From NCBI GenBank assembly GCA_949744505.1, contig CATJXY010000022.1, positions 1 to 32,642 of the forward strand: DNA of 32,642 bases, written 5' to 3'. The translations under genes and the position numbers were made by a program. Source of the stretch: an uncultured Erysipelotrichaceae bacterium. GTDB taxonomy: Bacteria; Bacillota_I; Bacilli_A; Erysipelotrichales; Erysipelotrichaceae. The stretch's first letter is position 1, and the number at the start of each line of letters is the position of its first letter. Below, piece by piece: positions 23,120 to 30,043 of this stretch. The notes beneath the pieces are model-generated. The model searched no databases. It was not told the DNA's origin and saw nothing but the letters and a program-made list of their open reading frames with translations.

Positions 23120-26100
23120 TTATTTACTGCCATAAAATCTCTTAATTTTAAATAAAACTACCTGAAGCCAAAAAGAAATAATTATCAATGTGAACCATAT
23201 TGTTCTATTCATATTATCTCCTGTTTCAGGGCTGTTCTCCGTTACCTTTGATTCTTCTATTCGTGGATTGACCTTTAATGTAATTTCAATACCCCTTATA
23301 ACATTATAATTATGAATATCTTTTGGTGTATAGGTAACTTTGAATGTCTTTGTTCCAACTTCTTTCACTGGTGTTGTTAACGATTCTTGCCATACAAATC
23401 CTTCCGGAAGACTTATCTCTGCAAGTGTTTGCCCTTCTATCATTGTTAAATTTGTTGGAATTTCATATATTGGATCTGCTTTACCGATTATAAACTTTCT
23501 CCAATCGGTCTCTGCACTTTGATGCGTGTCATTTTCCTCAACAATCGCTTTTACTTGATAGACTCCCGCATTAATTGGTGCAGTCCCAATATTTTCCCAT
23601 TCATTGTCTTTTTTCATTTGGTAAATAAAGCTTACTTTACCTGCTCCCTCTGTTACAATATAATCCTTTTCCGATAAAAAAACCGCATTTCCATCATAGA
23701 TTTTATCCAAATTTAGGTCATCTTTGAAAGAAAGAATTGTTTTCTTTTTTTCAATCCATTTTGCATAATAGATTTTACCTGATTTAGGATTTATTACAGA
23801 TTCCCCACTGAAAGATGCATTCTCATACCAACCGCCAAAGAGATAACCGTTTTTAAAAGGAATTGCAAGTGTATCTTTTATAAACTCTGTGTGTTCAGAG
23901 AATACCCCACCATTGGTAATGGCAAGGATCGTTTTAGCAGGTGAGTAATTTTCAGCACCCGGAACATTTGATAGTAATTTAAGTTGTTGTTCTTGCGAAA
24001 AATACATAGTAAAACTTCCTGACACTTCCTCAATTCGAGTAAATGCGGCGTTTCCAATCTGAGTAACGGATTCAGGTATGAATACAGCTGATAATCCAGT
24101 CTTTTGAAATGCATACTCACCAATACTTGTTACTGTATTAGGTATTAAAATTCTTTTTAAAGATGATGAAAATTGAAACAACTGATTTGATATATTATTC
24201 AAAGTTTTTGGCAAAACCACACTCTCTAGATTCGAACATGAATAGAATACTGCTTTATCGATACTTAAAACAGAGTCAGGGATTTCTATGCTTTTTATTG
24301 CAGTCATTGCAAATGCCTGATTCTCAATCTTTTCAATCCCATCTTTAAGGTCGACTGAATACAAATTCTTACATTCAAAGAAAGCATATGAACCTATTGT
24401 TTTAACATTTCCAGGTATAGAAATTGTTTCTATTGCAGTTCCTTGAAATGCAGATTGCATAATCGTATTAATATTGGAACCTAAACTATTTATTATTTCA
24501 AGGCTTGAGCAATAATGAAATGCTTGATAACCGATAACTTCTAAACTTTCCGGCAAAATAAGCTCCTTAAGATTTTTAGCACATTTTAAGCTTCTTTTAC
24601 CAATATAAGTTACTCCTTCATCAACTATTACTTTAGTAATTTGATTAAGATAATTTTTCCATGGTCTCGTATCTGTTTTCCATTCACTTTGAGGGGTATT
24701 CGCATTGTTGACTCCGGTAACATCTAAGTCCATCATAGCACCTACTCCGGTGAGAGTGAGCGTATAAGTAGGATTTTCATGATCCCCATTGTTTTGTTCC
24801 AGATAAGCAATCACATAATCATTCTCCCCTTTAGCCGAGACATCCCATGGATCATCCTTCGTACCTTGGATTTCCCTCCACTGTGCATAAAGTGTTATAT
24901 CAGAAGAAACTGTAATCATCGCTCTATTCTGATAACGCACTCCGCTTCCATCACGATTTGTATCCCAACCATCAAATACATAACCATCACGATTAAAACT
25001 ATTAGTACGAAGAATCGTTTGTTTATCAAAAGGCACTTGCTGCGTGATAATAGTTTCTTCCCCATCTATATTGTTATTGAAAGTAATTGTGACTCCTTTT
25101 GCCGTTTTTAATTGATTATTTTCTTCATCTAAAATAAGTGCGTATGTTCCTTCACTATCAGTAGAAAAATCAATTTTTTCTAAATCATTTGATGTCAAAT
25201 GATAATTATCTGATCCCTGTACTACTAATACATCTTCCTCTAAAATACCATTTCTGATACAGTAAATATCCAAAACAGACCCTTCCGGTATCGAGTTAGT
25301 GAACACCAATGGTGTATTGCTTGTGATTGCAACTGTTTGTGTTTTATCGGTCTTGTTTCCACTAAAAATTGTAGGACCTTGTAAACGAAATGCAGGTTTT
25401 GAGTTTCCAATAAAAGTACAACTTTCAATTTCACATGAGCCTTTATTATCAGAAGAAAGACCTCCCCATGTCACAGCACCGGCCTGTATATTTTGTTCAA
25501 CCTGATTATTTTGAAATAAAGCTCCTTTAATAAAAAGTGTTGACCCTTTATTTCCATAAATGCCGGCTCGCCAATTGCTACTGTTATTCTCAAGGATACG
25601 AACCGGATCATTAGTATTTTGAGAATCAATCACACAAGTGCTGTTACCTTGATTCCCAATCACACCATAGTCATTTCCGAAATTATTTGAAATTGTACCC
25701 CCCTCAATATATACAGTTCCTCCGGAATTCCAAATCGCACTACCATAATTGGCCGAACTTCCATCAATTGTTCCGCCATACATATTAAAAATACCATCCG
25801 GCCAAATACATAAAGCCCCTCCATTTCCTGTTGCCTTATTTTTCTTTAATATCGCACCGGAATACATATTAACCTTAGCTTGGTTACTCAAATAAACAGC
25901 TCCTCCACCATCTTTTTCAAAATAACCATTTTGAATTGTACAACCACTCAGTAAATTAATTTCTGCTTTTACCGCAAAAATTGCCCGTCCTCTTCCCTTA
26001 AGATCAATCGAGATATTTTTCAAAGAAAGTCCACTGGTAGGAGTCTCCAAAGTTCCTTCATCAGAGGAAGCACCAACATTAAACAAACTGGAATTGGCCA

Positions 26101-26692
26101 TAAATGAATCTTCTACAGAAATTGTAATATCCGGGTTTACACCTTGAATCAGAATAAATTTCTCTGAATATGAAATAGAAGAACTCAATATAATATCTTT
26201 ACTAACCGTAATCACAGCCGGATCATTTTTAGTTCCGGTAACATTTTGAATCGCCATCAATAAATCTGACTCTGTTTCCACATTAGTCTTGTCATTTATA
26301 ATAGTTGTATAGACATCTTCATCATTAGTCAATTCTTCCTTGATAGAGGTTACTTCAATCGATATTTTTTCGTTCTTTGTGCTATTATCCACTATGTAAT
26401 CCACAAGGAATTCATAAGTTCCATTTTCACAGACACTATAACTAATTGATGATAATCCATCACTCTGTTCCTTACCATCTGGTAAAGTCACTTTTTCTAT
26501 TCGTTCTTTTTCAGTTTCTTCAAACGTCAAAATAATGGTAGACATCAATTTATTTTCACTGATTTCTTGTCTAATTTCATAATGAAGTGAACTTGCCTCC
26601 TTTGCTAAAGTAATTTGTACTATTGGATCTAAAATTAAAACTACCGCCAAAAACATAGAGAGTATCCCTGATATCAACTTCCATATCTTCAT
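23120..26692 (-). CDS. Mosaic surface protein: beta-helix, LRR and InlB-type repeats, SPETG signal
   Basis: A 1190-residue wall protein. Residues 1-30 form a signal peptide (MKIWKLISGILSMFLAVVLI). About 190-450 is a right-handed beta-helix-like region with repeated turns such as GGTIDGSSANYGSAIWNSGG. About 535-605 is a Listeria-Bacteroides (InlB B-type) repeat ending TLYAQW, and about 925-980 a second one ending IYYAKW. About 685-900 holds BspA-type leucine-rich repeats (units like LPESLEVIGYQAFHYCSSLE). About 985-1140 has two more beta-domains. The C-terminus is SPETG (1154-1158), a hydrophobic helix and basic RFYGSK, a sorting signal of the xPxTG type. ATG at 26692 has AAGGAGG; an upstream ATG at 26872 lacks one. 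Probably an adhesin; the ligand is unknown. Confidence 0.85.
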   Translation of the reverse strand: MKIWKLISGILSMFLAVVLILDPIVQITLAKEASSLHYEIRQEISENKLMSTIILTFEETEKERIEKVTLPDGKEQSDGLSSISYSVCENGTYEFLVDYIVDNSTKNEKISIEVTSIKEELTNDEDVYTTIINDKTNVETESDLLMAIQNVTGTKNDPAVITVSKDIILSSSISYSEKFILIQGVNPDITISVEDSFMANSSLFNVGASSDEGTLETPTSGLSLKNISIDLKGRGRAIFAVKAEINLLSGCTIQNGYFEKDGGGAVYLSNQAKVNMYSGAILKKNKATGNGGALCIWPDGIFNMYGGTIDGSSANYGSAIWNSGGTVYIEGGTISNNFGNDYGVIGNQGNSTCVIDSQNTNDPVRILENNSSNWRAGIYGNKGSTLFIKGALFQNNQVEQNIQAGAVTWGGLSSDNKGSCEIESCTFIGNSKPAFRLQGPTIFSGNKTDKTQTVAITSNTPLVFTNSIPEGSVLDIYCIRNGILEEDVLVVQGSDNYHLTSNDLEKIDFSTDSEGTYALILDEENNQLKTAKGVTITFNNNIDGEETIITQQVPFDKQTILRTNSFNRDGYVFDGWDTNRDGSGVRYQNRAMITVSSDITLYAQWREIQGTKDDPWDVSAKGENDYVIAYLEQNNGDHENPTYTLTLTGVGAMMDLDVTGVNNANTPQSEWKTDTRPWKNYLNQITKVIVDEGVTYIGKRSLKCAKNLKELILPESLEVIGYQAFHYCSSLEIINSLGSNINTIMQSAFQGTAIETISIPGNVKTIGSYAFFECKNLYSVDLKDGIEKIENQAFAMTAIKSIEIPDSVLSIDKAVFYSCSNLESVVLPKTLNNISNQLFQFSSSLKRILIPNTVTSIGEYAFQKTGLSAVFIPESVTQIGNAAFTRIEEVSGSFTMYFSQEQQLKLLSNVPGAENYSPAKTILAITNGGVFSEHTEFIKDTLAIPFKNGYLFGGWYENASFSGESVINPKSGKIYYAKWIEKKKTILSFKDDLNLDKIYDGNAVFLSEKDYIVTEGAGKVSFIYQMKKDNEWENIGTAPINAGVYQVKAIVEENDTHQSAETDWRKFIIGKADPIYEIPTNLTMIEGQTLAEISLPEGFVWQESLTTPVKEVGTKTFKVTYTPKDIHNYNVIRGIEITLKVNPRIEESKVTENSPETGDNMNRTIWFTLIIISFWLQVVLFKIKRFYGSK

Positions 26693-26737
26693 GCCATTTC
26701 CCTCCTTATTTAAAATCATAAATACAGATTTTGTACT

Positions 26738-26781
26738 ATTATACAAATAATCTTTATTTATTTTTTCCTTTACTAATAAAA
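26738..26781 (-). promoter_or_regulatory. Promoter region of the surface protein gene (shared 5' module)
   Basis: TATAAT on the minus strand (26743-26738) is preceded, at the same distance as at the 27780 gene, by TTTTATTAGTAA (26781-26770). No consensus -35 box is present at 17 bases. The repeated arrangement supports it as a real promoter. Confidence 0.5.
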
Positions 26782-26805
26782 GATTCATTCTATAAATCCT
26801 TATGC

Positions 26806-26840
26806 AATAAAAAAAGTAACAGGATGTCAACCTGTTACTT
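26806..26840 (-). terminator. Terminator of the DUF4352 lipoprotein operon
   Basis: AAGTAACAGG (26814-26823) and CCTGTTACTT (26831-26840) form a 10-bp stem with a 7-base loop, followed by a T-run on the minus strand. It lies about 60 bases after the lipoprotein stop. Confidence 0.8.
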
Positions 26841-26899
26841 CTTGATTGGTTTATTCTATAGAATTTAATCAATATAAACTGTCCTCTCTATTAAATCCA

Positions 26900-27415
26900 T
26901 TATTTTGAAATTGGTAATTTAACTTCACATTTATTAAAAATATCATCGAATTCAACATAGTAATCACCATCCCCATCATAAACCACAGCTAAATATGCAT
27001 CCGCTTCCGCTTGAGGTCTTAAATCACCATTATACCCAAGAATATTATCAAAGTAAAAAGCAACATCTTCCAACTCTGTTCCCTTACTTCCATATAATTT
27101 TATATAAAACATGTTGATATTTCCTGTTTCATCAGAATTATTTTTGATATGAACAGGAATCAATGCGATATCAGCACCGTCTAATTCAGAATACGGATTA
27201 TCTAATGTTGTCCATTCAATACTATCAGAAATAACCATTTCAAATTCATCAAATACAAATGTGTCACCATAAGACAATTCTTTTTTTACTTCAACTTCCT
27301 TTTGCGATTCCTCATTTTGAATTGTTTTTCCTTCTTCATTTGAACTGCTCTCATCACTCCCACAACCTGAAGCAATCAGCATTAAGCTTAATAATAAAAT
27401 TAATGACTTCTTCAT
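26900..27415 (-). CDS. DUF4352-type lipoprotein
   Basis: A 171-residue lipoprotein. The N-terminus MKKSLILLLSLMLIASGC ends with lipidated Cys18, followed by a Ser/Glu-rich linker (about 19-48). The C-terminal domain (about 50-170) has a beta-sandwich pattern: TFVFDEFEMVISDSIEW, ALIPVHIKNNSDETGNINMF and YLAVVYDGDGDYYVEF, which fit DUF4352-like immunoglobulin-fold domains common in Firmicutes lipoproteins. It overlaps the small membrane protein gene by four bases (ATGA), so they are co-translated. Function unknown; the fold is often linked to protein-protein contact outside the membrane. Confidence 0.75.
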   Translation of the reverse strand: MKKSLILLLSLMLIASGCGSDESSSNEEGKTIQNEESQKEVEVKKELSYGDTFVFDEFEMVISDSIEWTTLDNPYSELDGADIALIPVHIKNNSDETGNINMFYIKLYGSKGTELEDVAFYFDNILGYNGDLRPQAEADAYLAVVYDGDGDYYVEFDDIFNKCEVKLPISK

Positions 27416-27780
27416 TTTTCTACCTCCTCATTTTTTGAAATATTCTTTCTCATTGTCACAAAAGAAAGAACAGCACATACCAAACACCAAGTCGCCCATA
27501 TATATAAATCTCCAAAATTGCCTGCCATCAGATAACCGCATACCGCTCCGATTCCATATAAAACCATAGTCGCAATACATCCACCTTTAGAACCATTTCT
27601 TGTCACCACAGATGTAATTCCACCTGTCAATAGCATAATGGATACGACCATTCCGGCACTCCCGCTCACTTGACCATTCTCTTCAATGGAATTTACCACT
27701 CCGGCTGCACAGGATTGTAAAGATACTAATGCAAACAAGATAATCGATAAAATTCCTGATACTAATCTCCATATTTTCAT
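27412..27780 (-). CDS. Small multi-pass membrane protein (MKIW-type start)
   Basis: A 122-residue protein with about four membrane segments (about 8-28, 43-60, 66-86, 90-108) and a charged tail. It starts MKIWRLVSGILSIILF, nearly the same as the surface protein's first 12 residues. The pattern MKIWRLVSGILSxxLF...QSCAAG recurs in small Firmicutes membrane proteins, often beside a DUF4352 lipoprotein, as here. ATAAGGAGG precedes the ATG at the same spacing as in the surface protein gene. It is the first gene of a two-gene operon. Function unknown. Confidence 0.75.
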   Translation of the reverse strand: MKIWRLVSGILSIILFALVSLQSCAAGVVNSIEENGQVSGSAGMVVSIMLLTGGITSVVTRNGSKGGCIATMVLYGIGAVCGYLMAGNFGDLYIWATWCLVCAVLSFVTMRKNISKNEEVEK

Positions 27781-27821
27781 CCTATTTTCCTCCTTATAAA
27801 AATATATTGAATATCGAATAT

Positions 27822-27865
27822 ATTATATAAAGAAAAAAACATTTATTTTTTTGTTACTAATAAAA
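27822..27865 (-). promoter_or_regulatory. Promoter of the small membrane protein/lipoprotein operon (shared 5' module)
   Basis: TATAAT on the minus strand (27827-27822) and TTTTATTAGTAA (27865-27854) stand 26 bases apart, as in the surface protein promoter region. No consensus -35 box is visible. An AT-rich partly symmetric stretch follows the -10. Confidence 0.5.
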
Positions 27866-27902
27866 ACCATTTATTGAAATGATTCTACTCAATAAATGGT
27901 TT
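27859..27902 (-). terminator. Terminator of the chromate-transporter operon
   Basis: AAACCATTTATTGA (27864-27877) and TCAATAAATGGTTT (27889-27902) form a 14-bp perfect stem with an 11-base loop, followed by TTTTTATT on the minus strand. Confidence 0.85.
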
Positions 27903-27911
27903 CTAAATAAT

Positions 27912-28466
27912 TTATATAAAACTAACGGCTGTATTGACGATCCCACATAATATCATGACTTTAATCGGATCTATTTTAAACTTTTCCAACAAAATCAGTG
28001 CAAATCCAAATACACCCGCTGCTATCCAATTGATTTCATTGGCACTGAATCCATTTTCTCCAAACAAAGCGTATACAAATATTGTAAATCCTGCTGATGC
28101 AATTAAGGCAATAACTGCGGGATGCAAACTCTTAAGCACTTCCTTAACAACTACCATATCTTTAAAATGAAAATAAACAAAAGCTAAGATTGAAACAATG
28201 AGAATTGAGGGTGCAATACATCCCAACGTTGCTGTCAAGGCACCCCAAAATCCGGCAATGCGTGTACCTACAAAAGTAGCACTATTAATGGAAATCGGTC
28301 CCGGTGTCATTTCCGCTATTGTAACGAGATCTGTAAATTCTGTCATTTCAAGCCAATGATGAAGTTCTACAACTTGCGCTTGGATAAACGGCATTGCCGC
28401 ATACCCACCGCCGATACTGAATAAACCAATTTGAAAAAAACTCCAAAATAACTGTAAATAAATCAT
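27912..28466 (-). CDS. Chromate transporter (CHR) subunit, second half
   Basis: A 184-residue half-size CHR-family protein, one of a split pair. It shows the family motif FFQIGLFSIGGGYAAMPFIQ (about 9-28) and MTEFTDLVTIAEMTPGPISI (about 41-60), the conserved TPGP, with six or so membrane segments in total. Full-length ChrA fuses two such halves of about 190 residues; many Firmicutes encode them as two genes whose products likely form heterodimers. The start, ATG at 28466, is one base after the first half's stop and uses a GGAGGG inside that gene's end, so translation is coupled. Chromate efflux is shown for some members only; the natural substrate here is unknown. Confidence 0.92.
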   Translation of the reverse strand: MIYLQLFWSFFQIGLFSIGGGYAAMPFIQAQVVELHHWLEMTEFTDLVTIAEMTPGPISINSATFVGTRIAGFWGALTATLGCIAPSILIVSILAFVYFHFKDMVVVKEVLKSLHPAVIALIASAGFTIFVYALFGENGFSANEINWIAAGVFGFALILLEKFKIDPIKVMILCGIVNTAVSFI

Positions 28467-28467
28467 A

Positions 28468-29034
28468 TTAAACCCTCCTCAACTTCCATAGTTTCCACAT
28501 TGTTTTACCAATTCCTGCCACGATACAACAAGCCAGTACCAAAACCGCATTGACTTCAAAAATATAGGTTGCAACAAATGCACAAAACATAATAATGATA
28601 TAGAATATTTTTCTTTTTTGAAATAAACCTTTAGCCATGGACCATACGACATCTAAAATAATAGCTGCCACCGCAATTCTCATCCCATTCAAAATAACCT
28701 GAACTATGACATTGTCTTTAAACAATGAATAAAACATAGAGATAATGGATATTATCGTCAAAGGCGGAATAATCGTTCCTAAAATTGATACGATTGCTCC
28801 CGGAATCTTTGCAATTTTATAACCAACCAAAATAGCTGAATTAATCGATACCGAACCGGGTGAAGATTGAGCCAAAGCAGTAATATCAAGCATTTCTTTT
28901 TCATCGATCCAATGATGTTGATCGACCATTTTCTTTTTCATCAATGTTACGATTACAAACCCACCACCAAATGTAAAAGTACTGAGATATAAAGTTGAAA
29001 TAAAAAGTTCCCAAAGCATTTTTCTCTTACTCAT
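28468..29034 (-). CDS. Chromate transporter (CHR) subunit, first half
   Basis: A 188-residue half-size CHR protein and first gene of the pair. It carries STFTFGGGFVIVTLMKKKMV (about 16-35) and ALAQSSPGSVSINSAILVGY, the SPGS variant of the family's PGP motif. About five membrane segments follow. ATG at 29034 has AAGGAGA upstream with a 9-base gap; an in-frame TTG at 29043 is too close to it. It diverges from the LysR regulator, so the LysR protein may control it, as is usual for LysR/divergent-gene pairs. Confidence 0.92.
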   Translation of the reverse strand: MSKRKMLWELFISTLYLSTFTFGGGFVIVTLMKKKMVDQHHWIDEKEMLDITALAQSSPGSVSINSAILVGYKIAKIPGAIVSILGTIIPPLTIISIISMFYSLFKDNVIVQVILNGMRIAVAAIILDVVWSMAKGLFQKRKIFYIIIMFCAFVATYIFEVNAVLVLACCIVAGIGKTMWKLWKLRRV

Positions 29035-29061
29035 TTGTATCAATCTCCTTCACAAGACATT

Positions 29062-29140: not shown

Positions 29141-30043
29141 ATGACGATTCGACACTTAAAAATATTCATCGCTGTGGTAGAAAATAAAAGTATCACAAAA
29201 GCAGCACGTGAATTGCATTTAGCACAGCCCTCCGTCACTTTAGCAATACAAGAAATAGAACAATACTATGGTATTTTATTATTTGATCGTATCGGAAAAA
29301 GATTATATATTACTGACAGTGGTAATCAATTTTACGACTATGCTTCTCATATCATTTCTTTGTTTGATGAAATGGAAAAGAAATTCAAAGATGGTGATAT
29401 CTTAAAAGAGCTTCATATCGGAGCTAGTATTACAATCGGAAATTTCTATCTTCCGGAATTAATAAACCGTTATAAAGAAAAACATCCCGATATTACTATC
29501 CATGCAATCATTCAAAACACGGAAAGCATTGAAGAAAGTTTGATCCAAAACTCAATTGACTTTGCCTTAATAGAAGGCGGAACAGTCAAAGATGCTCGTC
29601 TCAAACAAATTCCTTTTATGGAAGACCAATTATTGCTAGTATGTGGCAAAACTCATGAATTAAGTGAAAAGGAATCCATTACTCTTCATGAACTTGCCCA
29701 TTGTGATTTTATCTTGCGAGAAAAAGGAAGCTCTACAAGAGAAAGTTTAGAAAAGTTGTTAGCTGATAATCACCTCACGATTACCCCGATATGGGAATCC
29801 GTTTCTACCCAGGCCATTATTCGTGCTGTAGAAGCCGGATTAGGTGTTTCTGTTGTCCCAAGTTCTCTTGCCAAAAGAGAAATCAGAAAAAAAAGACTGC
29901 ATGTTATCGAAATCGAAAACAACAGCCTTTCCCGGCATTTCAGTATTCTTTATCACAGAAATAAATATCTATCTCAATCTGCCAAAGATTTTATTGAATT
30001 ATGTAAAAAATCCGCAGAAAAAATCTCACATGAAATTTATTAA
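29141..30043 (+). CDS. LysR-family transcriptional regulator
   Basis: A 300-residue LysR-type regulator. Residues 1-60 are the winged helix-turn-helix (LKIFIAVVENKSITKAAREL, then LAQPSVTLAIQEIEQYYGIL, then LFDRIGKRLYIT). The remainder (about 88-295) is the periplasmic-binding-protein-like effector domain, with LHIGASITIGNFYLPELINR at its start and VEAGLGVSVVPSSLAKRE. ATG at 29141 has AAGGAGG. It diverges from the CHR transporter pair with interleaved promoters, so it probably controls that pair and itself. Its ligand is unknown. Its stop overlaps the malQ stop by three bases on the opposite strand. Confidence 0.95.
   Translation: MTIRHLKIFIAVVENKSITKAARELHLAQPSVTLAIQEIEQYYGILLFDRIGKRLYITDSGNQFYDYASHIISLFDEMEKKFKDGDILKELHIGASITIGNFYLPELINRYKEKHPDITIHAIIQNTESIEESLIQNSIDFALIEGGTVKDARLKQIPFMEDQLLLVCGKTHELSEKESITLHELAHCDFILREKGSSTRESLEKLLADNHLTITPIWESVSTQAIIRAVEAGLGVSVVPSSLAKREIRKKRLHVIEIENNSLSRHFSILYHRNKYLSQSAKDFIELCKKSAEKISHEIY

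Follow-up and report, generated by a model that had tools for sequence, protein, structure and literature searches.

We analyzed a window of 32,642 nucleotides (contig CATJXY010000022.1) from an uncultured Erysipelotrichaceae bacterium, in which two neighboring genes have similar 5' ends. One encodes a large surface protein and the other a small membrane protein. The features are as follows:

23120..26692 (-), surface-protein gene, 1190 aa, probable recipient of the 5' module; start codon 26690..26692
26633..26692 (-), first 20 codons of the surface gene, forming the leader that it has in common with the small-protein family
26701..26707 (-), surface-gene ribosome binding site (RBS), AAGGAGG, with 8 nt between it and ATG
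26738..26743 (-), TATAAT, putative -10 of the surface gene
26770..26781 (-), TTTTATTAGTAA element, copy A, 5' of the surface gene
26811..26843 (-), terminator-like hairpin immediately 5' of copy A, at the end of the unit formed by the small membrane protein and the lipoprotein
26900..27415 (-), DUF4352/DUF5067-like lipoprotein gene, overlapping the small membrane-protein gene; probable operon partner
27412..27780 (-), small membrane-protein gene, 122 aa, phrog_9418 family; start codon 27778..27780
27789..27795 (-), AAGGAGG RBS, copy B, likewise with 8 nt between it and the ATG of the small membrane-protein gene
27822..27827 (-), TATAAT, putative -10 of the small gene (copy B)
27854..27865 (-), TTTTATTAGTAA element, copy B, 5' of the small gene; starts in the T-run of a hairpin (27861-27905)

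In order of transcription, the small membrane protein comes first, followed by the overlapping lipoprotein gene, the terminator-like hairpin, the second module and finally the surface gene. Four hydrophobic segments are seen in the small protein, which matches the phrog_9418 profile over its full length (E = 1.5e-35, residues 1-117). The surface protein gave no full-length match to phrog_9418, and a PHROG scan returned other families only. It carries BspA-type LRR and Flg_new repeats and a SPETG sortase-like C-terminus. The match of the lipoprotein to DUF4352/DUF5067 falls below the Pfam cut-off, and the protein is also phrog_806-like. We observe that the small membrane protein repeatedly adjoins a lipoprotein gene (26900-27415 here; loci L010, L011, L014 and L016), suggesting that the two form a functional pair. 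Elsewhere in the window, judged from sequence only, two adjacent genes at 27912-29043 resemble chromate-transporter halves, and a LysR-like regulator lies on the opposite strand to them at 29141-30043.

Both 5' modules consist of TTTTATTAGTAA-N26-TATAAT, AAGGAGG, 8 bases and ATG. The original prediction had given the distance from RBS to ATG as nine bases; it is indeed equal in the two genes, at 8. The prediction had also placed the same TTTTATTAGTAA-N26-TATAAT arrangement before both genes, and the window holds exactly two sites without mismatch, at 26738-26781(-) and 27822-27865(-). When up to 3 mismatches are allowed, 0.36 sites per window are expected by chance. TATAAT lies 45 nt from the ATG of the surface gene versus 41 nt for the small gene, and in both copies the TTTTATTAGTAA element starts in the T-run of a hairpin. 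Neither putative promoter has a recognizable -35 hexamer, and therefore an upstream element or activator may be needed. The proteins begin MKIWKLISGILS (surface protein) and MKIWRLVSGILS (small membrane protein), and these starts and the length of 1190 residues are as first described. A structured leader RNA was rejected as a candidate, with the best Rfam match at E 1.8 (a microRNA family) and leaders that fold no better than shuffles.

Local alignment of the two 5' ends (130 nt upstream plus 90 nt coding) gave a score of 71, compared with a maximum of 43 in 3000 dinucleotide shuffles. The similarity thus exceeds that of random AT-rich sequence, which was the check proposed with the original prediction. 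The alignment extends from the TTTTATTAGTAA element through the leader and RBS into the codons. The bodies of the two proteins show no similarity (36 versus a shuffle mean of 35.9), in agreement with the earlier view that shared ancestry of the whole genes is unlikely. Homology farther upstream of the TTTTATTAGTAA element is not significant (0.29).

We then compared 5' ends (-110 to +45) across the whole genome, using 1,845,169 bases in 70 contigs and 1730 ORFs called by a simple script. Among 1,442,451 pairs of 5' ends, the surface and small genes score 71 with each other, and their next-best partners reach 44 for the surface gene and 41 for the small gene. The search for further copies of the module suggested at the outset found none elsewhere in the genome. 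Thirty-three pairs score at least 60. Many of these involve eight genes with T-box leaders (8/8 confirmed by Rfam); most of the others are paralogues, paralogous neighbors, or pairs that have sequence in common at contig ends or through upstream genes, a classification judged from the alignments rather than pair by pair. One of the 33 pairs, outside the window, consists of a ComGA-like gene (C34:160423-161397(-)) and a 131-aa gene of unknown function (C34:42217-42612(-)), which share a 61-nt promoter/leader with TATCGTANATAAG (score 72). TATCGTANATA occurs within 150 nt before a gene only at these two genes, and their shared promoter is possibly competence-type. Near-matches to the TTTTATTAGTAA element do exist upstream of genes, with no clear excess over spacing and permutation controls, and a wider regulon defined by the element has no good support.

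The shared leader belongs to a conserved N-terminal signature of the small-protein family. Relatives of the small protein from the same bacterial family begin MK[IT]WKLVSGI, with the one exception of MKTTKLVIGI. Conservation in the protein family peaks at residues 1-12 (0.89 versus a mean of 0.66), and M1, K2, W4, L6, V7, S8, G9 and I10, 8 of the first 10 residues, are invariant in a 17-member alignment. We searched genomes with a DNA pattern for MK[IT]W[KR]L.SGI, which demands exact codon classes and so misses divergent starts. Besides the two genes here, it matched four times in 268 genomes of the bacterial family, once in 392 genomes of the phylum and 19 times in 2.9 million viral contigs, and every match was a member of the small-protein family. 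The surface protein is the sole carrier from outside the protein family in the sampled bacterial-family and phylum genomes and the viral contigs. The start that had been described as MKIW-type is therefore confined, in these searches, to the small-protein family and this one surface gene.

A profile of the 26 N-terminal residues (own genome excluded) ranked the surface protein second to the small protein, with E = 4e-6 over residues 1-19; the third-ranked protein had E = 1.4. The shared leader is clear over codons 1-12, the profile match extends to residue 19, and the surface leader is unique among the 1730 ORFs of the genome. Relatives of the small protein were not found in plasmids, nor in viral contigs by peptide search, where the N-terminal pattern then found the 19. 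Solved structures yielded no significant relative, and defense-system models gave no match.

Relatives of the surface protein, collected through its N-terminal domain, have other signal peptides, among them MRMNLTKRITAWFLTL, MQKKLFIALLV, MRMNLTKRITAWFLTLVMVLGLIPQTMFA and MQKKLFIALLVIFMAVGC. A strongly hydrophobic stretch covers about residues 3-30 of the surface leader, and TLA/KEA, read by eye, is a plausible candidate cleavage site. Direct reading of the leader, MKIWKLISGILSMFLAVVLILDPIVQITLA, finds no YSIRK/GxxS motif.

Together, the unrelated bodies, the 5' match that is unique genome-wide, the family-specific N-terminus and the different signal peptides of the surface protein's relatives support the original proposal that a 5' cassette was duplicated or exchanged. 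The coding leader supports this reading, and the promoter region does so fairly well. The co-expression and shared membrane targeting suggested along with it may or may not follow. We consider it probable that the surface gene has a chimeric 5' end, in which a module from a family of small four-helix membrane proteins is joined to an unrelated sortase-type surface protein.

The promoter half of the module is open to another explanation, namely that the coding leader is homologous while the upstream similarity arose independently, from a site for the same regulator or from similar AT-rich DNA. The segment upstream of the RBS alone scores 36 versus a shuffle mean of 23, with 29 of 3000 shuffles as good (about 0.01). 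It is joint-best, with one or two ties, among 1698 genes, and aligning the two copies requires small indels; by itself, in AT-rich DNA, this similarity is only moderately significant, in keeping with independent origin. Four sites in the genome have at most one mismatch to TTTTATTAGTAA-N26-TATAAT and all lie 25-45 nt before a start codon, which also suits a regulator's site. However, at most two mismatches with the spacing of 26 give six sites, similar to the numbers from control spacings and from permuted motifs; nor are intergenic regions enriched in TTAGTAA. The extension of the alignment into the codons also speaks against an independent promoter, and we regard it as unlikely. Upstream similarity is 47 within the pair versus 14-22 against relatives' upstream DNA, as would fit a promoter region that descends from a common ancestor or has stayed under selection.

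Chance or convergence, with nothing exchanged at all, would draw on the facts that AT-rich promoters look alike, that signal peptides with lysine, tryptophan and hydrophobic residues are common, and that both N-termini must be positively charged and hydrophobic. This explanation is largely refuted by the score of 71 against a shuffle maximum of 43, by a leader unique in the genome with a profile E of 4e-6, and by the lack of any other non-family carrier in the sampled bacterial-family and phylum genomes or the 2.9 million viral contigs; we think it very improbable. A transfer in the opposite direction, from the surface gene to the small membrane-protein gene, has scarcely any probability in our estimate. 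Taken alone, the local DNA gives the transfer no direction, but the N-terminus is conserved across the small-protein family, including phage members and one Bacteroidota record, and is absent from the relatives of the surface protein. The reverse direction is refuted for the codons and possible for the promoter part alone. Because relatives of the surface protein have other signal peptides, the small-protein family is the source of the codons and the surface gene their recipient. We infer the same direction for the promoter region only from its linkage to the codons.

Under the chimeric reading, the captured stretch would span about 120-150 bp, comprising the promoter region, leader, RBS and first 12-20 codons. 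Its source may be the neighboring small gene itself or a former tandem copy. The donor-family and recipient genes are neighbors on the same strand, with the lipoprotein gene and terminator-like hairpin between them, and the simplest route would be for the unit to have been duplicated in tandem and a deletion or fusion to have followed. Given the hydrophobic leader and the four-segment small protein, the start of helix 1 could act as a signal peptide with its orientation unchanged. The module's positively charged N-terminus would then form the n-region of a Sec signal peptide, with the first half of helix 1 as its h-region. A single step can thereby give a surface gene both expression and secretion, with a promoter, an RBS and the start of a membrane helix reused, and we infer that the two units are transcribed similarly.

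The codons carry some information on the age of the event. Codons 1-12 of the two genes differ by six synonymous changes and two conservative replacements. Their identity is 26/36, and the surface gene reaches up to 27/36 with several family members from other genera, in comparisons where its own genus is represented by a single genome. Since these codons are no closer to the neighbor than to members from other genera, the neighbor may not be the direct donor. Divergence at synonymous sites as great as that between genera suggests that the event is old and the peptide conserved. Retention of the peptide despite heavy synonymous change has two possible readings: selection acting on the leader within the surface protein, or origin of the module from a paralogue that had already diverged under selection when the fusion took place.

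A more specific role for the leader is conceivable, although we hold it to be rather doubtful. MKxWKLVSGI could be more than a helix start and act as a signal that a phage-associated membrane-protein family uses specifically for targeting or insertion; by capturing this signal together with the promoter, the surface protein would have come to share the family's membrane site and expression state. If so, conservation of the peptide despite synonymous change would reflect selection in both genes. A near-invariant N-terminus in a lysogeny-associated family of membrane proteins raises a specific and testable question about its role.

Members of phrog_9418 are common in the lysogeny regions of temperate phages, often near repressor, ImmA-like, lipoprotein or integrase genes; the names of phage neighbor genes are our reading of the translations. 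In Lacticaseibacillus phage R3.3, a member follows repressor-like, ImmA-like and membrane-anchored proteins and precedes the integrase. Another lies beside Xre-type repressors in MT835477, and members in several viral contigs adjoin integrase-like genes or lipoproteins. A phrog_9418-like member with a zinc-ribbon-like extension occurs in a record labeled Segatella copri (Bacteroidota; L009:3001-3375), which could be a cross-phylum transfer or contamination.

The two genes relate differently to phrog_9418: the neighbor is a clear member and supplies the leader signature, whereas in the surface protein the resemblance is limited to some 12-19 residues at the N-terminus. Ltp-type superinfection exclusion lipoproteins sit in lysogeny modules (PMC3952083). 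Some phrog_9418 members occupy the same kind of place, flanked by repressor and integrase and adjoining a lipoprotein gene. The likeness is one of gene position and we claim no sequence relation; a role of phrog_9418 in superinfection exclusion would be a guess. The YSIRK/G-S signal peptides (PMC11898559) offer another parallel: there too, a surface protein anchored to the cell wall carries a signal peptide of conserved sequence, which may do more than generic export. Unlike those, the leader here is without YSIRK and is common to a membrane-protein family rather than to many surface proteins.

The closest precedent may be the terminal reassortment of type III effectors, in which a promoter and N-terminal export signal become fused to an unrelated coding body (Stavrinides et al. 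2006, as cited in PMC9963460 and PMC5895054). As these citing papers summarize it, the product is expressed and exported at once. Likewise, the surface and small genes share a promoter region and an N-terminal export segment on unrelated bodies, the source family of the 5' end is identifiable, and relatives of the recipient carry a different 5' end. The differences are that here the cell is Gram-positive, the signal is probably Sec-type and the case is a single one. In addition, the donor segment comes from helix 1 of a membrane protein with several passes and the recipient is sortase-type, neither being a type III effector. The surface gene may thus represent a 5' module capture that resembles terminal reassortment in another export pathway and another type of cell.
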